Shown here in pieces: positions 656-59,488 of a DNA stretch of 64,000 bases (the first letter of the stretch is position 1; every line of letters starts with the position of its first letter). Under the pieces are notes generated by a model. The model ran no database searches and was not told the origin of the DNA. It saw only the letters and a list, made by a program, of their open reading frames with translations. Position numbers and translations under genes: made by a program. The DNA is from Pegea sp. RAD2-039. Taxonomy: Eukaryota > Chordata > Thaliacea > Salpida > Salpidae. The stretch lies in contig JAQGEQ010000162.1 of NCBI GenBank assembly GCA_034620365.1, positions 62,001-126,000 of the forward strand, written 5' to 3'.

Positions 656-921
656 AAAAAGAAATGGGTCCAATACTACCGGTTAGGCTGTGACACTTAT
701 TTAGAGAAATGATCGGATGACTTTTATTAATATTCTGGTCAAAGTACTACAATAGAGAAAATTGCCTAAAGAAATCAGGTAGAACATTGAACCAATTAGA
801 ATCAGAAAGAAGTTCGAACATCTGATCATAACACAGTGTACACAGCTCCTAACCTCATACCGTCCACCATCTCAAGCCTCCTAGTAGCTGGATTACAAGC
901 GCACGCCACAACGCCCGGCGA
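656..921 (-). mobile_element. 7SL (SRP RNA)-related element, copy 1, near full length
   Basis: On the minus strand the element starts CGCCGGGCGTTGTGGCGTGC and continues with a CTTGTAATCCAGCTACTAGG stretch, matching the Alu domain of 7SL/SRP RNA in order. Further positions, such as GATCAGATGTTCGAACTTC, align with the start of the SRP S-domain. The 3' end reads AGCCTAACC then GGACCCATTTCTTTTT, matching the 7SL 3' strand and a Pol III T-run terminator. The middle is diverged, and no convincing SRP54-binding asymmetric loop is visible. It is therefore more likely a SINE or retropseudogene than a working SRP RNA gene. Confidence 0.65.
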
Positions 922-9442: not shown

Positions 9443-9711
9443 CAGCGAATGTGACTTTTCAAAATATTATTTAAAGGCAAAGTGTTTTTTTTTATATAAT
9501 CTTCTCTTTCGAAAGTCACTTTTCAAATATTGATCAACTAAAGAAATAAAAGAGAAATGAAACAAAATTTAGTTTTGTTTGTTTACAAAAAACATTTACA
9601 AAAACATCACATTTTTTCGATTTAGTAACCAGTTTGTTCGATGTTCTTTTTATCATGTGTTTTGCATGCCACAGTTTGAGGTGTTACATTTTTTCAAATA
9701 AGTTTACTTAC

Positions 9712-11344
9712 AAATGGTTGTTTTGAAACTTTCTAATAAGCGTTTGCTTCCATATGGGTTTTTGAAGAATGAATGCTTGTATTCATTTCTTCATCTCCTA
9801 TCAATTCTTCGTTCTTGCGAGTAAATTTCTTCAAAATTTTAGGATTTAAAGGTTTTTTTGAGTTGTCAACAGAAGAGGTTATATCAAAGTCACTTTCATT
9901 ATTTGTTTTACTACACTCAGATGTTTCTGATGCTATTTGTGTTGACATCATGGAAGAAGGTTTAACCGATCTCGGCTTATATTGTAATTTCCAGACTGGA
10001 ATCGGCTTCTTTTGCAACGCCCTTAAGGAAGATGTGCTTAAGGTCGATTGATTCTTGTCTGTTTTGTCACTATTAAATAAGTTTTCCTGTGACAGGACAC
10101 CACAACTTTTTCCAATATAATTATATACTTGAAAATCAAGAGAATGATAAATCTCATTCTTATTTCTTTGAATTTTATCTTTTTCTAAAAGAGATGTTAT
10201 CGCTGACTGTATAGTTTCATTTGTCTGAGACATATTTAAAGCACTCGTAGAAGCATGATCTGAAGTTGATAAAGAAGTTTTCTCATCAGAATTGTGGGAA
10301 GAAAATGTTTCAAAGATGTTCTCTAACTTATTCAAACTTGTGTTCGGAGTTGTGTGCCAAAAATTCGTTGCACAATGATTGGATGAGTTGCCGTTTGTTT
10401 TTTTACAATTTGATAGAAACAAAACATCTTGGTTTATTAACTTTTATTGTCATTTTTGTTCAAAAATTAGGGACTTCACTGTTTCTCAAAAGTTTTGAAT
10501 AATCATGCTTTATTATGCATTGATGATCGTTCTTTTTTCATATAAAATGTAAATTCAATCTCTAATATCTAAATAGAAAATTTATTTGACCAAAATAAAA
10601 TAGTTTATATATAAAATACCTTCCGGTTTTTTCCCAAACACCTCTTTTAGTGTCTTATCATTGTTAAGATATTCCTCATTGCACTCCAACACCACCTTTT
10701 GTTAAAACAAATAACTTTTAAACCTTTTTTCCAAACCAATTTTTCTACTTTAACATAATTACAAGTTATAAAATATACAAAACATGAAGACTTAAAAGTA
10801 AAAAAACTTGACTTAATATATTCAGTGAAGTTAAAAATAATTATAATTGGTTTATATACTTAAAGTTTTATTTGTTTAACAAACATTAGAAGTGGTTTAA
10901 AAAATCGTTCGTATTTTCTATGTCACTTATTTTAAATAAATACTTTTGAATCTACATTTTAAAAGTGCATAAAAGTATAAAATAATTACTTGAGTAGAGG
11001 TTTCCCGTCTATGTACACTTTCTAGCTTGGTAAAAACAAGTTTTTCAACTGATCTTACTGAGCTATTTTAGTTAATGATGATTTCAAACGGATCAATCTC
11101 GGGAATAATCTTTACAAAATGACTGTCCTCAACTTCATTGAGGTTGCTACAATAAAAACCATTTTTTGATGAAACGTATTTTTAAGAATAAATTTAAAAT
11201 CATACAAAGCTATATAATTGATAAAAAGAAATTCTTGATTAAAAAAGTCAACACAAACAATTTTCAAATTAAAGTAACTTTATAATCACCCAGTTAAATG
11301 TTTCAGTTTCAAAGTATATGCTCTGCTAGGATCTTCACTAAATT
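9712..11344 (-). pseudogene. P1: PCGF/Psc-like gene copy lacking its RING exons
   Basis: Four minus-strand exons with matching phases: linker 11,290-11,344 (EFSEDPSRAYTLKLKHLT), RAWUL-like part 1 10,990-11,146 (HFVKIIPEIDP, then SVEKLVFTKLE), RAWUL-like part 2 10,620-10,695 (VVLECNEEYLNNDKTLKEVF), and tail exon 9,712-10,427 ending at CCATTT|GTAAGT. PCGF proteins are core subunits of Polycomb repressive complex 1, with an N-terminal RING and a C-terminal RAWUL domain. The RAWUL call rests on the hydrophobic pattern and exon order. A TAA interrupts the first RAWUL exon and a TAG sits just before the tail donor. RAWUL part 2 is the only intact copy in the window. Both RING exons are deleted, so this copy cannot make a complete protein. 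Confidence 0.6.
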
Positions 11345-12817: not shown

Positions 12818-12934
12818 CCTCATCATCATCATCACCACCATCAACATCATCGTCATCATCATCATCATCATCACCATCATCATCATCAACATCATCATCA
12901 TCATCATCATCATCATCATTATCATCATCATCAA

Positions 12935-12966
<32 letters not shown>

Positions 12967-13013
12967 ACATCATCATCATCATCATCATCATCATCAGCAT
13001 CATCATCTTCATC

Positions 13014-13092
<79 letters not shown>

Positions 13093-13143
13093 GCACATCA
13101 TCATCATCATCATCATCATCACATCATCATCATCATCATCAAG

Positions 13144-13183
<40 letters not shown>

Positions 13184-13341
13184 ACATCAACATCATCAAC
13201 ATCATCAACATCATCAACATCATCAACATCATCAACATCATCAACATCATCAACATCATCAACATCATCAACATCATCAACATCATCATAATCATCATCA
13301 TCACCATCATCAGATCATCATCATCATGATCATCATCAACA
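12818..13341. repeat. Long ATC/TCA trinucleotide microsatellite
   Basis: About 520 bp of TCA/ATC repeats on the plus strand (GAT/TGA on the minus strand). Scattered AAC and CAC variants occur, and within 13,180-13,290 there is a regular 9-bp period (AACATCATC). Two short phase slips (GCACATC near 13,093 and CACATC near 13,120) divide the array. Open frames through it (poly-Met on the minus strand) are by-products of the repeat. The paralogous site at 51,490-51,510 holds only CGATCATCATCAA, so the expansion is specific to this copy or was lost in the other. Confidence 0.97.
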
Positions 13342-13870: not shown

Positions 13871-14151
13871 AAAGAAATGGGTCCAATCTTTTTGGTTAGG
13901 CTGTGACACTTGTTTAGATGTATTGATGGGGATATAGAATATAAGACACCCCTGTCGAAGCATCAGAATGCAGAGAACTAACTGAGGATATTTGAGGATC
14001 TAGCAAGCTAGACAGAACTATAGAGAATTATCATAAAGCTGCAAGAATACTCGACAACCATACAAGTGCACACAGCTTCTAACCTCATACCGTCCACCAT
14101 CTCAAGCCTCCTAGCAACTGGATTACAAGCGCACGCCACAACGCCCGGCGA
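13871..14151 (-). mobile_element. 7SL (SRP RNA)-related element, copy 2, near full length
   Basis: The minus-strand 5' end CGCCGGGCGTTGTGGCGTGC and the 3' end CACAGCCTAACC then CCCATTTCTTTTT match copy 1. The centre differs but is shared with copy 3 at 42.4 kb, including a perfect hairpin GATCTAGCAAGCTAGAC. The 5' ~100 bases hold the Pol III A-box-like region of 7SL. The length of about 281 bases is close to a normal SRP RNA, yet the S-domain is not recognisable. Copies 2 and 3 were duplicated with the attached Y block, while copy 1 is an older relative. Confidence 0.65.
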
Positions 14152-21240: not shown

Positions 21241-22075
21241 AAAAAATTAAAAAAAGGTAATACTTACAACTTTAAGCTTCTATAACAACCATAAAATTAA
21301 TAAAACACCTAAAACAATTAATTTATAAGATTTAAAAGATAAATAATTAACTTTTTAAGATATAAAATTGTTTGAAACTAAACAACAAGTAGATACAAAG
21401 TTGATACAAAAAATCACTTTAAAACTACAAGTCATGAGATTCAAAACTTTTATGCTCGACATTTAAAAGTTACTGCTAAAAAACATTTACAAATTTTCAT
21501 TTTTATAAAACTATAATTTACCAAGCAGCTAAGAAGTACAAATCAACCTCTAATTAATTTTAATTTATATATATTTTTCAGTTTCAATAAATTTAGTAAC
21601 ATAAGTCTGAGTTAAAAAAAACTGAATGATTTAATAAGACCATCTGTAGGTTTGCTATAAAACTATGAATAGTAAATAATTGGGTTATTCAATTATCTTA
21701 CTACTATGACCTGTAAAATTACTCTTTCATAGCATCAAACTAAAAACCTTATTATTTTGACAAAATATGCGCAAAATAATCCGAACATATTATTAACAAT
21801 GAATTATTATCAACCAAAATATTTAATTGTCTTTCACTTAAAAATATCAAAGAAAACCCCCATTACCGAAATCACAATTTAGTTTAGGTGGTCTACTTAA
21901 CTTCCCACTTATCAATAATTAGCAACATTAATCGGATTAGACTTATTTTTTAAAAGATAGATGTGGCTTAATATCAAAGTTACACATTTTTATTTGAAAA
22001 ATTTAAGCTTTATACTCGTGGTGGTTTAGAGTTAGTTTTATTTTCAGTAGCTAAGTATTTACATCATCATTACAA
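21241..22075. other. AT-rich DNA without a recognised gene
   Basis: Between the end of block Y1 and the LINE fragment. Part of it (21,240-21,900) shows faint, rearranged similarity to 5.16-6.0 kb (lysine- and isoleucine-rich short frames, ACTACTATGACC-like motif), suggesting an older duplication. No exon could be supported. Confidence 0.45.
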
Positions 22076-22535
22076 AGGTATCTACTCCTACTATTTCCTA
22101 CTCCAATATCCTTTCAAATATCTCTGAGATGGTAGATCTAGACATAACAGTTGATATAGTATCTAAGGCTATTTCTTCTCTAAAATCAACAGTTTCCAAC
22201 ACCCCAGATCAAATCCCAGCTTTGTTTTTAAGAAAAAGTACTTCTTCTTTAGCGCTACCCTTATCGCTACTCTTTAACATGACTCTTAAGCGGGGAAGAC
22301 TTCCACAAATTTGGAAGAATGCTATCATTACTTCAATTTATAAGAAGGGTCCCAGAAACACTGCATTTAGCTACAGACCAGTTTCGCTGACTTCGGTTAT
22401 CTGCAGAACTCAAGAACATATCATTCACAACCACATAACTAGATCTAATTTGTGAGAATGTGTGTTAGCGAGAGGTGCTCTCTTTAGGCACCCTCCTTCA
22501 CATTTATTGTAATAAATAAATAAATAAATAGATAA
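22076..22535 (+). mobile_element. CR1-like LINE fragment: RT segment plus 3' tail
   Basis: The plus-strand frame from about 22,076 to the stop at 22,453-22,455 encodes an internal part of a non-LTR reverse transcriptase: VSKAISSLKSTV, then DQIPALFLRK, LSLLFNMTLKRGRLPQIWKN, AIITSIYKKGPRN, and SYRPVSLTSVICRTQEHII. These correspond to RT motifs 1-2a (the usual SPGPDGIP is changed to SNTPDQIP, and NYRPVSLTS to SYRPVSLTS). The RT then breaks off and is joined directly to the element's 3' tail (22,456-22,535) with AATAAATAAATA repeats. Most of the RT, including the catalytic YADD region, is deleted, so the copy is dead. Confidence 0.85.
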
Positions 22536-25350: not shown

Positions 25351-27042
25351 TTAATAATCAATCATAGCGTCTTTTTCTCTTAAGTGACTTTTCAGCTGAA
25401 AAACGTCTACCTCTAGCGTCTTTTTTGTTGTTGATAGTTCTTTAACAAGTCTTACGTCTTCCTTCACAACATCTGCTGTCAGCATTATATCTACTATAAT
25501 GTGAAGATTCTTCTTTACATTTTTCACATTCTTTTCTTGTATTATCTTTGTATCGATTATTGGAAGTGCTTTCATGTTTTAGTTCTGCTGATGTTGGTGA
25601 AAAACGAGATGGATGAACTCGTAGTAATTCTCCATCATTGTATTCACAAACATTTTCATAATGTTTTGGAAGTTTTCTTTTTCTGGAACTAGTTTTTCTT
25701 TTTTTTCGCGACTTTAGAACTTTTTTGAATCTTATAGTTCTTTCTCTGGTGGGAGATAACTCGGTTGTTGAATACTCTTCATCCGAGGAATCTAAGAATC
25801 TTTTAACTTTTTTTGCTTTTTGTCTCTCAACAGGAGCATTTACAAGGGTTACTGTTTCTTTTGGTATTTGCACTTCTTGCCTATTATTGTCATTATCAAA
25901 TTCAATAACGCTGTTTCTTAAACTATTTATATTACATTCACTAGCGTCATCGGAGTCCAATGTGAGATCGATAATGCTAGTTGAACTAACATCTTTGCTT
26001 GAATCACGTTTTTTGTGCAAATGTTCCAACTGTTTGTTTGTCTCTATTATCTTTTCAATTTTTTTCGAATTTTCAGGCCTAACCTTTCGACATTGTTTTT
26101 GAACTTTTGTAGATTCAACTGCTGTTGTCGCTTGATTAGGACTTGCTGTACATGTCGTTAGTTCTTTATTACTTGTTTCAGCAAGAGAACAGTGTTGAAT
26201 ACTAATGCTATGAGGAACTTCAACTGGTTTTTCAAGGAAAGTTTCACGGACTGTTATCAAGTAACTCTTTTTCAGTCTTATTTCTAGCCTCGTCATTTGC
26301 ATCAGCTTTTGTAACTGGGGAAACTTCTTCAATCTCTTCTTCATCATCGTCAATTATGAAAACAGCAGCCTTAGCTCGTTTGTGTTTTCTCCAATTATTG
26401 AGTAAATCTCCCATAGTAGCTGGTTCACGTTTCACAAGATCTTTATTTAAGATACTACCGTTTTGTGCGTCTTTCATAACTTGACTAAATTGGTTTTCTC
26501 CTTCGCTGCTTTCTTGACCCCCTGTATTGGCTACATAGTTTAAAACATATTTAGCATATTGTTTAGACCAGCCAGATGTTGTTGGTTGCTCGTATTGGTT
26601 TCCAAAATAACTACTTTGGGCTGAATGTTGAGATTGAGAGGTCTCACTTTTTTCTTCAGAAGAAAGTATTCCAGATTCGTTTTCTTTTTCTAAGACTGAA
26701 TTGTCTTTTAGTTGTCTATCTGTTGATCAATTATCGCTTACGGGAGGCTTATACCAACCACCCAAGTGATTATGTATTGCTGAAGAGCTTTGTTTTGTTG
26801 TGAGTTTGTCTGAATACTTGGATGCTGTTTCGGTATTTTGAGGTTTTTTTGTTGTTGTTTAATCAAGGTTCTAGAGCTTAATTTACAAGAATCCTTTTTA
26901 AATGTTACTCTAGTAAGCTCAACTGGTATTAATTTAAGATTTCGTTGTCTATTTTGATTTTTCAAAAGCCTTGGATCTTTTCCATGTTTGATTAAAGTTG
27001 AGCTCCACTTAGCCAGTCTTAGTCCAGGTTTTCTTTTATCTA
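25351..27042 (-). pseudogene. PCGF-like gene 3' tail: disordered, two SIM-like motifs, coiled coil
   Basis: The minus strand codes for about 560 residues in pieces. It starts KRKPGLRLAKWSS, shifts frame in an A-run near 26,850, meets a TGA at 26,727-26,729, shifts again near 26,250 and near 25,480, then ends in a charged coiled-coil-like stretch KELSTTKKTLEVDVFQLK and a stop at 25,351. Visible motifs are VFIIDDDEEE (26,334-26,363) and IIDLTLDSDD (25,946-25,975), both of the SUMO-interaction form (hydrophobic core followed by acidic residues), and a basic KSRKKRK/SRKRK nuclear-localisation-like cluster near 25,700. It directly follows the P2 tail exon on the same strand. Long unstructured tails occur in Drosophila Psc and Su(z)2. 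No other copy of this segment exists in the window. Membership of the PCGF-like gene is inferred from position. Confidence 0.5.
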
Positions 27043-27123
27043 AGTTTGTTCGATGTTCTTTTTATCATGTGTTTTGCATGCCACAGTTTGAGGTGTTACA
27101 TTTTTTCAAATAAGTTTACTTAC

Positions 27124-28757
27124 AAATGGTTGTTTTGAAACTTTCTTATAAGCGTTTGCTTCCATATGGGTTTTTGAAGAATGAATGCTTGTATTCATTT
27201 CTTCATCTCCTATCAATTCTTGGTTCCTCCAAGTAAATTTCTTGAAAATTTTAGGATTTAAAGGTTTCTTTCAGTTGTCAACAGAAGAAGTTATTTTAGA
27301 GTCTCTTTCATTATTTGTTTTACTACACTCAGATGTTTTTGATACTATTTGTGTTGACTTCGTGGAAGAAGGTTTACCCGATCTCGGCTTATATTGTAAT
27401 TTCTAGACTGGAATCGGCTTCTTCTGCAATGTCCTTAAGGAAGATGTGTTTAAGGTCGATTGATTCTTGTCTGTTTTGTCACTATTAAATGAGTTTTCCT
27501 GTGACAGGACTCCACAACTTTTTCCAATATAATTATATACTTGAAAATCAGGAGACTGATAAGTCTCATTCTTATTTCTTTGATTTTTATCTATTTCTAA
27601 AAGAGATTTTATCGCTGGCTGTTTAGTTTCATTTGTCTGAGACATATTTAAAGCACTCGTAGAAGCATGATCTGAAGTTGATAAAGAAGTTTTCTCATCA
27701 GAATTGTGGGAAGAAAATGTTTCAAAGATGTTCTCTAACTTATTCAAACTTGTGTTCGGAGTTGTGTGCCGAAAATTCGTTGCACAATGATTGGATGAGT
27801 TGCCGTTTGTTTTTTTACAATTTGATAGAAACAAAACATCTTGGTTTATTAACTTTTATTGTCATTTTTGTTCAAAAATTAGGGACTTCACTGTTTCTCA
27901 AAAGTTTTGAATAATCATGCTTTATTATGCATTGATGATCGTTCTTTTTTCATATAAAATGTAAATTCAATCTCTAATATCTAAATAGAAAATTTATTTG
28001 ACCAAAATAAAATAGTTTATATATAAAATACCTTCCGGTTTTTTTCCCAAACACCTCCTTTAGTGTCTTATCATTGTTAAGATATTCCTCATTGCACTCC
28101 AACACCGACTTTTGTTAAAACAAATAACTTTTAAACCTTTTTTCCAAACCAATTTTTCTACTTTAACATAATTACAAGTTATAAAATATACAAAACATGA
28201 AGATTTAAAAGTAAAAAAACTTGACTTAATATATTCAGTGAAGTTAAAAATAATTATAATTTGTTTATATACTTAAAATTTTATTTGTTTAACAAACATT
28301 AGAAGTGGTTTAAAAAATCGTTCGTATTTTCTATGTCACTTATTTTAAATAAATACTTTTGAATCTACATTTTAAAAGTGCATAAAAGTATAAAATAATT
28401 ACTTGAGTAGAGGTTTCCCGTCTATGTACACTTTCTAGCTTGGTAAAAACAAGTTTTTCAACTGATCTTACTGAGCTATTTTAGTTAATGATGATTTCAA
28501 ACGGATCAATCTCGGGAATAATCTTTACAAAATGACTGTCCTCAACTTCATTGAGGTTGCTACAATAAAAACCATTTTTTGATGAAACGTATTTTTAGGA
28601 ATAAATTTAAAATCATACAAAGCTATATAATTGATAAAAAGAAATTCTTGATTAAAAAAGTCAACACAAACAATTTTCAAATAAAAGTAACTTTATAATC
28701 ACCTAGTTAAATGTTTCAGTTTCAAAGTATAAGCTCTGCTAGGATCTTCAGTAAATT
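27124..28757 (-). pseudogene. P2: PCGF/Psc-like gene copy lacking its RING exons
   Basis: Exons: linker 28,703-28,757, RAWUL-like part 1 28,403-28,559 with a correct acceptor, RAWUL-like part 2 28,032-28,108, and tail exon 27,124-27,839, ending at the same CCATTT|GTAAGT donor. Disruptions are a TAA in RAWUL part 1 (shared with P1), a seventh A in the run of part 2 that shifts the frame, a TAG at 27,403-27,405 replacing the Trp of PVWKLQYKP, and a TGA near 27,280. Near the tail donor it keeps AAG where the other three copies have TAG. It lacks both RING exons through the same joint as P1. It is the only copy joined to the long 3' tail segment. Confidence 0.6.
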
Positions 28758-34353: not shown

Positions 34354-34614
34354 TGTGATTTTTCAAAATATTATTTAAAGGCAAAGTGTTTTTTTTATAT
34401 AATCTTCTCTTTCGAAAGTCACTTTTCAAATATTGATCAACTAAAGAAATAAAAGAGAAATGAAACAAAATTTAGTTTTGTTTGTATACAAAAAACATTT
34501 ACAAAAACATCACATTTTGTCGATTTAGTAACCAGTTTGTTCGATGTTCTTTTTATCATGTGTTTTGCATGCCACAGTTTGAGGTGTTACATTTTTTCAA
34601 ATAAGTTTACTTAC

Positions 34615-36222
34615 AAATGGTTGTTTTGAAACTTTCTAATAAGCGTTTGCTTCCATATGGGTTTTTGAAGAATGAATGCTTGTATTCATTTCTTCATCTC
34701 CTATCAATTCTTCGTTCTTGCGAGTAAATTTCTTCAAAATTTTAGGATTTAAAGGTTTTTTTGAGTTGTCAACAGAATAGGTTATATTAAAGTCACTTTC
34801 ATTATTTGTTTTACTACACTCAGATGTTTCTGATGCTATTTGTGTTGACATCATGGAAGAAGGTTTAACCGATCTCGGCTTATATTGTAATTTCCAGACT
34901 GGAATCGGCTTCTTTTGCAACGCCCTTAAGGAAGATGTGCTTAAGGTCGATTGATTCTTGTCTGTTTTGTCACTATTAAATGAGTTTTCCTGTGACAGGA
35001 CACCACAACTTTTTCCAATATAATTATATACTTGAAAATCAGGAGAATGATAAATCTCATTCTTATTTCTTTGATTTTTATCTTTTTCTAAAAGAGATGT
35101 TATCGCTGACTGTTTAGTTTCATTTGTCTGAGACATATTTAAAGCACTCGTAGAAGCATGATCTGAAGTTGATAAAGAAGTTTTCTCATCAGAATTGTGG
35201 GAAGAAAATGTTTCAAAGATGTTTTCTAACTTATTCAAACTTGTGTTCGGAGTTTTGTGCCTAAAATTCGTTGCATAATGATTGGATGAGTTGTTGTTTG
35301 TTTTTTTACATTTTGATAGAAACAAAACATCTTTGATTATTAACCTTTTTTGTCGTTTTTAGTCAAAAATTAGGGACTTCACTGTTTCTCGAAAGTTAAG
35401 AATAGTCATGTGCTCATTGTGCATTGATGATCGTTCTTTTTTCATATAAAATGTAAATCAGTTACTAAATAGTTTATATAAAAAATACCTTCGAATCTTC
35501 AGGTTTTTTCCCAAACACCTACTTTAGTGTCTTATCATTGTTAAGATCTTCCTCATTGCACTCCAACACCACCTTTTGTTAAAACAAATAACTTTTAAAC
35601 CTTTTTTTCCAAACCAATTTTTCTACTTTAACATAATTATAAGTTAAAAAGATACAAAACATGAAGATTTAAAAGTACACAAACTTGACTTAATTTATTC
35701 AGTGGAGTTAAAAATAATTATAATTTGTTTATATACTTAAAATTTTATTTGTTTAACAAACATTAGAAGTGGTTTAAAAAATTGTTAGTATTTTCTATGT
35801 CACTTATTTTAAATAAATACTTTTGAATCTACATTTTAAAAGTGCATAAAAGTATAAATTAATTACTTGAGTAGAGGTTTCCCGTCTATATACACTTTCT
35901 AACTTGGTAAAAACAAGTTATTTAACTAATCTTACTGAGCTATGTTGATTAATAATGATTTTAATTGGATCAATCTCGGGAATAATCTTTACAAAATGAT
36001 TGTCCTCAACTTCATTGAGGTTGTTACAACAAAAACTATTTTTTGATGAAATGAATTTTTTAAGAATAAATTTAAAAACATACACAGCTATATAATTGAT
36101 AAAAAGAAATTTCTGATTAAAAAAGTCAACACAAACATTTTTCAAACAAAAGTAATTTTATAATCACCTAGTTAAATGTTTCACTTTCAAAGTATAAGCT
36201 CTGCAAGGATCTTCAGTAAGTT
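34615..36222 (-). pseudogene. P3: PCGF/Psc-like gene, RAWUL-like domain and tail exons
   Basis: Continues from the RING exons. Linker 36,168-36,222 (ELTEDPCRAYTLKVKHLT), RAWUL-like part 1 35,867-36,023, part 2 35,489-35,572, tail exon 34,615-35,330 (716 bp, starting DVLFLSKCKKTN, rich in Ser, Thr and Asn, with a short PVWKLQYKPRS block). The exon order and pattern (VRxVEKL, then VVLECNEExLNNDKTLKxVF) fit a C-terminal RAWUL domain, the part that binds partner subunits in PRC1. Defects are the part 1 acceptor changed from AG to AA, a stop after SVRLVK, TAG in part 2 (TLK stop VFGK) and TAG before the tail donor. Part 2 is 8 bp longer than in P1. Confidence 0.6.
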
Positions 36223-36287
36223 CTAAGGGAAAAAAATATTGTAAAATTTAGATGAAAAAAAGCTTTTTTTACAAAACGTTTTTTTAC

Positions 36288-36660
36288 CTCCTTGGCTTAT
36301 CTGTGGATATATTTTTAATATATCTACAATCAGCCTTTCTAATTCTCTGTCCTCAAGAAATGGTTTGTCAGCATGATCATACATTATATGATGGCAGGTG
36401 GGAAATGATGAATCGGTTTGAAGATGGTCTTCAATACATTTCTTACAAACTAAAACGAGTTAAAAGTAAATATTTCTCTGTTAAAAATATTTAAAAAAGA
36501 GATTATTATAAAAATAACCACTTAAAGAAACATCCTTACAATAGTGAAGACATGTTTTCAAAACCTTAACTTTGTACAGGAAGGATTTGCAGATATTACA
36601 ACTGATAGTTTTTAGTATGAATTGATCAATAGACGTTAATTTGTCCATGTTTGTTCTCAT
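36288..36660 (-). pseudogene. P3: PCGF-type RING finger, two exons, open frame
   Basis: Exon 1 (36,540-36,660) starts at ATG and encodes 40 residues, and exon 2 (36,288-36,449) adds 54. The split codon T|TT gives CLHYFCKKCIEDHLQTDSSF then PTC. RING ligand positions are C21, C24, C37, H39, C42, C45, residue 56 and C59. The spacing is identical to BMI1/PCGF4 as I recall it (18, 21, 34, 36, 39, 42, 53, 56). Residue 56 is Phe, not Cys, so one zinc ligand is missing. After the RING, DKPFLEDRELERLIVDILKI matches the PCGF 'PLLxxxxDxxLQDIVYKLVP' segment. PCGF proteins pair with RING1 as H2A ubiquitin ligases in PRC1. Both splice sites are good. This is the best-preserved RING in the window. Confidence 0.72.
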
Positions 36661-36821
36661 TAGATGAGGACTGAATCCAGGCAAAATTCTGCAGCATGTT
36701 GCTTATCAAAAGGATATATTTGACATATTAATTTATAATTTAAACAATTTTATTGTTTTTAAAATTATTTTGACTCATTTTCATGATTATACAATAAACA
36801 TTGTATCCTAGATACTAAAGT

Positions 36822-42371: not shown

Positions 42372-42653
42372 AAAAAGAAATGGGTCCAATCTTATTGATT
42401 AGGCTGTGACACTTGTACTGATGTACTGATGAGGATATAGAATATAAGAGACCCCTGTCGAAGAATCAAATTGCAGAGAATTAACTGAGGATATTTGAGG
42501 ATTTAGCAAGCTAGATAGAACTATAGAGAATTATCATAAAGCTGCAAGAATACTCGACAACCATACAGTGCACACAGCTTCTAACCTCATACCGTCCACC
42601 ATCTCAAGCCTCCTAGCAAGTGGATTACAGGCGCACGCCACAACGCCCGGCGA
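42372..42653 (-). mobile_element. 7SL (SRP RNA)-related element, copy 3, near full length
   Basis: Duplicate of copy 2 together with its right flank. Same 5' head (CGCCGGGCGTTGTGGCGTGC), same 3' end (GGACCCATTTCTTTTTC), with point differences such as CCTGTAATCCACTTGC. The left flank differs from copy 2 beyond the element, so the duplication boundary coincides closely with the element's 3' end. Confidence 0.65.
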
Positions 42654-56790: not shown

Positions 56791-57074
56791 ATCTCTTACT
56801 CGTACGACGTTTAGATTCAATATTAATTTTAATCTAAATGAATAATCAAAACTGTGTTCATAGAAAGTAATAACAAATATACAATTCAGTTTTGATCTAG
56901 AGTTAAGTAATATGAAATGTAATTGTTGTTTAAAAACTTTTAAAAATATTAAAAGTAATAAAATTATAATTTATATCTATATATATTTACAAAATACACT
57001 TATATAAACATCAAATTAAAATATTTATCATTATATAAATAATTTTATAAACAAAATAAAACAAACAGTGTGTA

Positions 57075-57192
57075 TATATTTGATCAACATGCATACCATG
57101 CCATGCCACGAAGCTTTTAACCTCAAACCTTCCACTATCTCAAGCCTCTTGGTAGCTGGATTACAAGCGCACGCCACAACCCTCAGCGAATG
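57075..57192 (-). repeat. 7SL-related 5' head fragment, copy C
   Basis: Third copy of the fragment at 9,340 and 34,240, here less mutated over the Alu-domain core (GTTGTGGCGTGCGCTTGTAA on the minus strand is kept intact). Confidence 0.6.
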
Positions 57193-57452
57193 TGACTTTT
57201 CAAAATATTATTTAAAGGCAAAGTGTTTTTTTTTATATAATCTTCTCTTTCGAAAGTCACTTTTCAAATATTGATCAACTAAAGAAATAAAAGAGAAATG
57301 AAACAAAATTTAGTTTTGTTTGTATACAAAAAACATTTACAAAAACATCACATTTTTTCGATTTAGTAACCAGTTTGTTCGATGTTCTTTTTATCATGTG
57401 TTTTGCATGCCACAGTTTGAGGTGTTACATTTTTTCGAATAAGTTTACTTAC

Positions 57453-59060
57453 AAATGGTTGTTTTGAAACTTTCTAATAAGCGTTTGCTTCCATATGGGT
57501 TTTTGAAGAATGAATGCTTGTATTCATTTCTTCATCTCCTATCAATTCTTCGTTCTTGCGAGTAAATTTCTTCAAAATTTTAGGATTTAAAGGTTTCTTT
57601 CAGTTGTCAACAGAATAGGTTATATTAAAGTCACTTTCATTATTTGTTTTACTACACTCAGATGTTTCTGATGCTATTTGTGTTGACATCGTGGAAGAAG
57701 GTTTACCCGATTTCGGCTTATATTGTAATTTCCAGACTGGAATCGGCTTCTTTTGCAACGCCCTTAAGGAAGATGTGCTTAAGGTCGATTGATTCTTGTC
57801 TGTTTTGTCACTATTAAATAAGTTTTCCTGTGACAGGACACCACAACTTTTTCCAATATAATTATATACTTGAAAATCGGGAGAATGATAAATCTCATTC
57901 TTATTTCTTTGATTTTTATCTATTTCTAAAAGAGATTTTATCGCTGACTGTTTAGTTTCATTTGTCTGAGACATATTTAAAGCACTCGTAGAAGCATGAT
58001 CTGAAGTTGATAAAGAAGTTTTCTCATCAGAATTGTGGGAAGAAAATGTTTCAAAGATGTTTTCTAACTTATTCAAACTTGTGTTCGGAGTTTTGTGCCT
58101 AAAATTCGTTGCACAATGATTGGATGAGTTGTTGTTTGTTTTTTTACATTTTGATAGAAACAAAACATCTTTGATTATTAACCTTTTTTGTCGTTTTTAG
58201 TCAAAAATTAGGGACTTCACTGTTTCTCGAAAGTTAGGAATAGTCATGTGCTCATTGTGCATTGATGATCGTTCTTTTTTCATATAAAATGTAAATCAGT
58301 TACTAAATAGTTTATATAAAAAATACCTTCGAATCTTCAGGTTTTTTCCCAAACAACTACTTTAGTGTCTTATCATTGTTAAGATATTCCTCATTGCACT
58401 CCAACACCACCTTTTGTTAAAACAAATAACTTTTAAACCTTTTTTTCCAAACCAATTTTTCTACTTTAACATAATTATAAGTTAAAAAGATACAAAACAT
58501 GAAGATTTAAAAGTACACAAACTTGACTTAATTTATTCAGTGGAGTTAAAAATAATTATAATTTGTTTATATACTTAAAATTTTATTTGTTTAACAAACA
58601 TTAGAAGTGGTTTAAAAAATCGTTCGTATTTTCTATGTCACTTATTTTAAATAAATACTTTTGAATCTACATTTTAAAAGTGCATAAAAGTATAAAATAA
58701 TTACTTGAGTAGAGGTTTCCCGTCTATATACACTTTCTAACTTGGTAAAAACAAGTTATTTAACTAATCTTACTGAGCTATGTTGATTAATAATGATTTT
58801 AATTGGATCAATCTTGGGAATAATCTTTACAAAATGATTGTCCTCAACTTCATTGAGGTTGTTACAACAAAAACTATTTTTTGATGAAATGAATTTTTTA
58901 AGAATAAATTTAAAAACATACACAGCTATATAATTGATAAAAAGAAATTTCTGATTAAAAAAGTCAACACAAACATTTTTCAAACAAAAGTAATTTTATA
59001 ATCACCTAGTTAAATGTTTCACTTTCAAAGTATAAGCTCTGCAAGGATCTTCAGTAAATT
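57453..59060 (-). pseudogene. P4: PCGF/Psc-like gene, RAWUL-like domain and tail exons
   Basis: Linker 59,006-59,060, RAWUL-like part 1 58,705-58,861, part 2 58,327-58,410, and tail exon 57,453-58,168, all the same lengths as in P3. Part 1 shares with P3 the lost acceptor (AA for AG) and the stop after SVRLVK. Part 2 has a TAG after TLK. The tail has a TGA at 57,600-57,602, a position also hit in P2, and TAG before the donor. P3 and P4 are therefore sister copies, with some P2-like sites that suggest gene conversion. Confidence 0.6.
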
Positions 59061-59126
59061 CTAAGGGAAAAAAATATTGTAAAATTTAGATGAAAAAAAG
59101 ATTTTTTTACAAAACGTTTTTATTAC

Positions 59127-59488
59127 CTCCTTGGCTTATCTGTGGATATATTTTTAATATATCTACAATCAGCCTTTCTAATTCTCTGTCCTCAAGAAAT
59201 GGTTTGTCAGCATGATCATACATTATATGATGACAGGTGGGAAATGATGAATCGGTTTAAAGATGGTCTTCAATACATTTCTTACAAACGAAAACGAGTT
59301 AAAAGTAAATATTTCTCTGTTAAAAATATTTAAAAAAGAGATTATTATATAAATAACCACTTAAAGAAACATCCTTACAATAGTGAAGACATGTTTTCAA
59401 AACCTTAACTTTGTACAGGAAGGATTTGCAGATATTACAATTGATAGTTTTTAGTATGAATTGATCAATAGACGTTAATTTGTCCATG
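59127..59488 (-). pseudogene. P4: PCGF-type RING finger, damaged
   Basis: Exon 1 59,379-59,488 starts at the second ATG, because an extra T shifts the frame at the first. Exon 2 is 59,127-59,288. The ligands and the Phe at the seventh position are as in P3. Exon 2 has a nonsense change (CAA to TAA) in the EDHLQTDSS segment, and its acceptor is CG instead of AG, so the RING cannot be made. Both changes are private to this copy. Confidence 0.7.

Follow-up and report, generated by a model that had tools for sequence, protein, structure and literature searches.

A probable lineage-specific, long-tailed PCGF paralogue and its decaying duplication array in the salp Pegea sp. RAD2-039

Subunits of PRC1 are usually seen as stable genes of few copies. 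The stretch of Pegea sp. RAD2-039 DNA analysed here (64,000 nucleotides, C72:62001-126000 in an assembly of 105.7 Mb and 387 contigs; hereafter the window) holds four related copies of what appears to be a PCGF-type RING gene, and the question that it raises is what such an array represents and whether any member of the family still encodes a protein. Our best explanation, to which we give a probability of about 0.8, is that a lineage-specific, long-tailed PCGF paralogue has been kept on contigs C50 and C58, and that the copies on C72 and C94 are a decaying duplication array. The open-access literature that we searched yielded no prior report of a PCGF array.

The four copies in the window

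All four copies lie on the minus strand. In the one at 34.6 kb, exon 1 (36540-36648) carries the start codon and the first half of the RING and ends at a GT donor in phase 1, exon 2 (36288-36449) carries the second RING half, and exon 3 (36168-36222) forms the linker between RING and RAWUL. The first part of a putative diverged RAWUL follows in exon 4 (35867-36035), which is interrupted by a TAA stop (35920-35918), and the RAWUL strand region in exon 5 (35489-35572), which is interrupted by a TAG stop (35521-35519). The sequence-only reading had joined six exons with consistent phases into a gene. Exons 1 to 5 are indeed flanked by AG and GT and followed by a long last exon, but the frame is closed by the stops in exons 4 and 5, and the last-exon remnant (34535-35459) starts out of frame; it contains an open reading frame at 34636-35325, and its homology to the full tail stops at 34535. 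The RING ligands fall at positions 17, 20, 33, 35, 38, 41, 52 and 55, a spacing that we take to be that of BMI1 at a constant offset. This agrees with the earlier description, except that the seventh ligand, numbered 56 there, is Phe and not Cys (codon 36405-36403), leaving seven of the eight ligands. Because a zinc-ligand Cys is replaced by Phe and two exons contain stops, this copy is a pseudogene.

The copy at 57.5 kb (57373-59487) likewise has exons 1 to 5 and a truncated last exon. Exon 1 (59379-59487) and exon 3 (59006-59060) flank an exon 2 (59127-59288) with the acceptor CG rather than AG and a TAA at codon 47, within the RING, where seven of eight zinc ligands are kept; exons 4 (58705-58873) and 5 (58327-58410) each contain the same stop as at 34.6 kb. 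Both RING exons are absent from the two remaining copies. The one at 9.7 kb (9632-11344) has exon 3 (11290-11344), an exon 4 (10990-11158) with the acceptor GG and a stop at codon 139, a shortened exon 5 (10620-10695) and a last-exon remnant with an open frame at 9733-10422. The one at 27.1 kb (25442-28757) has exons 3 (28703-28757), 4 (28403-28571) and 5 (28032-28108) and a last exon whose long tail continues in several frames to ~25442, and the open frames at 25442-27061 are this frameshifted tail. The two share the same loss of ~482 bp spanning both RING exons: in the coordinates of the 34.6-kb locus, homology halts at 36265 and restarts at 36748. Tail homology stops past KNIEQT in every window copy but that at 27.1 kb. 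The last-exon frames that persist are 229 codons long at both 9.7 and 34.6 kb, 143 at 27.1 kb and 187 at 57.5 kb. Related copies thus lie where they had been placed, near 9.7, 27.1 and 57.5 kb, but they do not make up four reconstructable genes: none of the four is complete or open, two are without a RING, the cited copy is short of one zinc ligand, and lesions are present in every one.

The window has a GC content of ~27%, and 82% of it is duplicated within itself in a self-comparison. The block holding the 34.6- and 57.5-kb copies repeats at a spacing of 22.8 kb with 97.5% identity over 8.2 kb, and homology between window copies runs kilobases past the gene ends. The window would on this evidence be part of the decayed section of the family, built from duplicated blocks. 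Ten other open frames in the window gave Pfam matches only below the curated cut-offs; one frame, at 22051-22455 on the plus strand, resembles part of a LINE reverse transcriptase by eye, a match that Pfam did not return. A 519-bp TCA trinucleotide tract (12820-13338; 174 copies, 87% matches) lies inside the array. Elsewhere in the assembly, TTAGGG repeats occur close to the ends of C108, C125 and C139 and also on C342; an assembly search for TTAGG found none, and one for COX1 gave no match.

Four minus-strand elements in the window (658-919, 13871-14149, 42374-42651 and 57059-57187) resemble 7SL/SRP RNA, scoring 75.7, 68.3, 66.9 and 37.2 bits against Rfam RF00017, with only the first above the cut-off. 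The three long elements are alike in their 5' Alu-domain part and at the 3' end and unlike in the middle; this comparison leaves out the canonical 7SL row, which is wrongly oriented in the alignment. A first look at the genome gave 347 such candidates, and 25 of the 26 that were scored match RF00017. Strong matches (256-263 bits) number four, on C258 and C1; weak matches (58-83 bits) number 21, with 14 on C72 (all minus), two on C280 and five on C282. It is possible that an Alu-domain RNA family was amplified together with the PCGF array.

Copy number and selection across the genome

The family has at least 21 copies, distributed over C72 (12), C94 (4), C50 (3) and C58 (2); they were located by a 690-bp probe (20 places) and by the RING exons (one more), and these counts are lower bounds. 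The local amplification proposed earlier is borne out by four copies in the window and at least 21 in the genome, with the open members on other contigs, and so is the proposed decay: by the codon table, all 16 copies on C72 and C94 are broken, among them C72_186k, which retains only part of the last exon, and C94_40k, whose 5' part is N. All five copies on C50 and C58, by comparison, have a PCGF-type N-terminal C3HC4 RING with eight zinc ligands and exons 1 to 5 free of stops. Three are open through to the stop, with last exons of 637 (C58_588k), 565 (C58_670k) and 1,717 codons (C50_400k), the last of which would stay open by chance, given base composition, with a probability of ~9e-63. C50_400k is without the usual exon 4 acceptor and needs an in-frame AG 12 nt further on. 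C50_380k is open across the 356 codons examined, and C50_503k has a frameshift where the last exon begins. The last exon is accordingly long in this family, contrary to the earlier view that every exon is tiny. We also modelled exon 4 as a pair of exons and discarded that model, since its phases do not fit and the open copies can be read through exon 4 undivided. SUMO-interaction motifs looked abundant in the tail by eye; there are three, against a shuffle mean of 1.16, and 51 of 500 shuffles reach three. The reading of the protein as a SUMO-targeted ligase was dropped because this count is not above that of shuffles.

Part of this copy number could be an artefact of assembly, in which haplotypes or misjoined repeats of fewer loci account for C94 and a section of C72 and for the pair of copies on C58. 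The identity between C72_121k and C94_16k is 99.8%, which means that C94 may in part duplicate C72. Contigs C229 and C230, which carry a different PCGF gene (below), are 99.2% alike over 3.0 kb where they overlap. The open copies at C58:588565 and C58:670790, 82 kb apart, differ by 0.4% in their introns and have last exons of 637 and 565 codons, as would result either from a recent duplication followed by an in-frame alteration or from an artefact of assembly. These similarities make inflation an alternative of some weight, if an unlikely one: it is difficult to reconcile with four distinct copies within a single 64-kb window, or with the divergence of several percent among the other C72 copies.

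The open and the broken copies differ in their substitutions. Across exons 1 to 5, dN/dS lies between 0.09 and 0.54 in all ten C50/C58 pairs, with Fisher p values of 0.025, 0.019 and 1.7e-4 for three of them; for one pair the tail gives 0.0014 (all uncorrected, from pairs that are not independent). Six pairs were compared in the tail: five have dN/dS values of 0.45-0.71, and the two C58 copies, which form the remaining pair, have a dS of 0 and nine non-synonymous changes. The open copies therefore look constrained yet fast-evolving. Six of the 16 C72/C94 copies were compared with one another. Of their 15 pairs, 13 have a dN/dS of at least 1 or a dS of 0 and the other two have 0.96 and 0.73, each pair carrying just 0-6 synonymous changes; the Fisher p values for two array pairs, again uncorrected and from non-independent pairs, are 0.51 and 0.083. 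Pairs of an open and an array copy give 0.43-1.19. The argument that the array is neutral draws mainly on its lesions and less on dN/dS.

It might be argued that the array copies are not dead, and that transcribed RING-only, tail-only or non-coding products regulate the open genes, for example as small RNAs or interfering proteins. The last-exon frames that persist in all four window copies, including the two of 229 codons, and the orientation of homologous copies on a single strand within C72 and on a single strand within C94 would fit such a role. Young copies, however, can retain long open frames, a synonymous excess is absent from most array pairs tested, and the array copies have lost splice sites, ligands and frames, so that we consider this quite improbable. 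Very improbable is the larger scheme of a germline conflict system on a Polycomb subunit, with a fast-evolving, lineage-specific, huge-tailed PCGF kept in several copies under selection and a decayed array, interleaved with 7SL-derived Alu-domain RNA copies, acting back via small RNAs or chromatin.

PCGF identity and the region after the RING

The joined RING exons of the 34.6-kb copy match Pfam PF13923 at 34.3 bits (cut-off 27), and among solved structures the best matches are a RING2-BMI1 chimera (3.9e-10), PCGF5 (8.3e-9) and PCGF6 (4e-7), followed by RNF4 at 1.3e-6, above the remaining PCGF chains. The PCGF identity first proposed from the sequence is upheld by these matches. Other RING genes in the genome include one on C29 that is RING1-like (74% identical over 47 residues), as well as C1:2592369 (L061) and C139:230197 (L062), which by eye we take to be MuRF/TRIM54-like and RNF181-like, respectively.

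Canonical PCGF genes are present as well. A spliced gene on C46 matches PCGF1 at 8.6e-40 with a provisional splice, and its RAWUL scores 44.8 bits, above the cut-off. An intronless gene for a 247-residue PCGF on C229 (C229:7716-8460 region, L058) and C230 (L059) matches PCGF1 at 4.9e-35, with a C229 RAWUL of 23.4 bits, below the cut-off; it is perhaps a retrogene, and the two contigs look like haplotypes. The array gene and the C46 gene have the intron phases 1,1,2,0 in common. Intron 1 interrupts the RING at the same site in both and intron 4 precedes the same RAWUL strand, while introns 2 and 3 can be aligned only roughly.

The sequence-only reading had also seen a RAWUL-like pattern in two exons, and had named a failure to match the RAWUL profile as evidence against itself. 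Pfam gives no RAWUL match even in the open copies, and a profile comparison gives a weak one (probability 3.1%, P 0.014; one of 60 column shuffles scored higher). We also compared the stretches on each side of intron 4 with C46, C229 and PCGF1, using 2000 shuffles and the intron as an anchor. The stretch after intron 4 matches C46, with p 0.0005 for C58_588k and none of 2000 shuffles reaching the score of C50_400k; in the same test it matches neither C229 (p 0.68, 0.70) nor PCGF1 (0.29, 0.26). The stretch before intron 4 matches C229 (p 0.01, 0.028) and neither C46 (0.27, 0.20) nor PCGF1 (0.20, 0.16). Because of the intron phases common to the C46 gene and this intron-anchored match, we favour the view that the region after the RING is a diverged RAWUL, which falls short of proof. 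A survey of RING1 and PCGF in 178 eukaryotes (PMC10638273) describes RAWUL domains missed by Pfam and ten species with a putative PCGF that has a RING and no recognisable RAWUL.

The missing Pfam RAWUL, together with the RNF4 and TRIM chains in the structure search, could instead be taken to indicate an unrelated RING protein, for example of RNF4 or TRIM type, that resembles PCGF in its RING by chance. Those chains have weaker E-values than the PCGF chains that top the search, and the agreement with C46 in four intron phases, in the position of the RING intron and in the region after the fourth intron makes this very improbable. Processed retrocopies can be dismissed, because introns are kept wherever copies keep exons and because homology reaches kilobases outside the gene.

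A kept paralogue and its decayed relatives

The gene that we believe to be a long-tailed PCGF paralogue has the PCGF-type C3HC4 RING in common with canonical members of the family (PCGF1/3/5 and BMI1; here the C46 and C229/C230 genes). It differs from them in being multi-copy, in a putative RAWUL below Pfam detection, in a fifth intron, in a shorter exon 3 (55 against 130-133 nt) and in a last exon that can reach 1,717 codons. A PCGF-type RING and then a very long C-terminal region are also seen in Drosophila Psc and Su(z)2, a duplicated gene pair. The very long region after the putative RAWUL in the three open copies resembles theirs in architecture; such a copy number and such decay are not known from Psc and Su(z)2. 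Another parallel is Drosophila Stellate and Suppressor of Stellate, where a protein gene present in many copies is accompanied by arrayed, degenerate relatives; the gene described here belongs to a different protein family.

A PRC1-type protein is the most likely product of the open members on C50 and C58. Its N-terminal RING would pair with RING1, for which the C29 gene is the candidate partner, and would be followed by a strongly diverged RAWUL and by a tail encoded in one exon, as long as 1,717 codons in the longest copy. Repeated duplication of gene-carrying blocks would have filled C72 and C94 with copies, and these, deprived in one case or another of the RING exons, of a zinc ligand, of splice sites, of the frame or of the tail, would now be drifting.

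If this is true, the array gene illustrates a limit touched on in PMC10638273, that Pfam profiles can miss a real RAWUL. With its 1,717-codon last exon, its RAWUL under Pfam detection and its at least 21 copies, the family would then allow one to test the limits of divergence in a PRC1 subunit and to ask whether Polycomb genes can enter rapid turnover.
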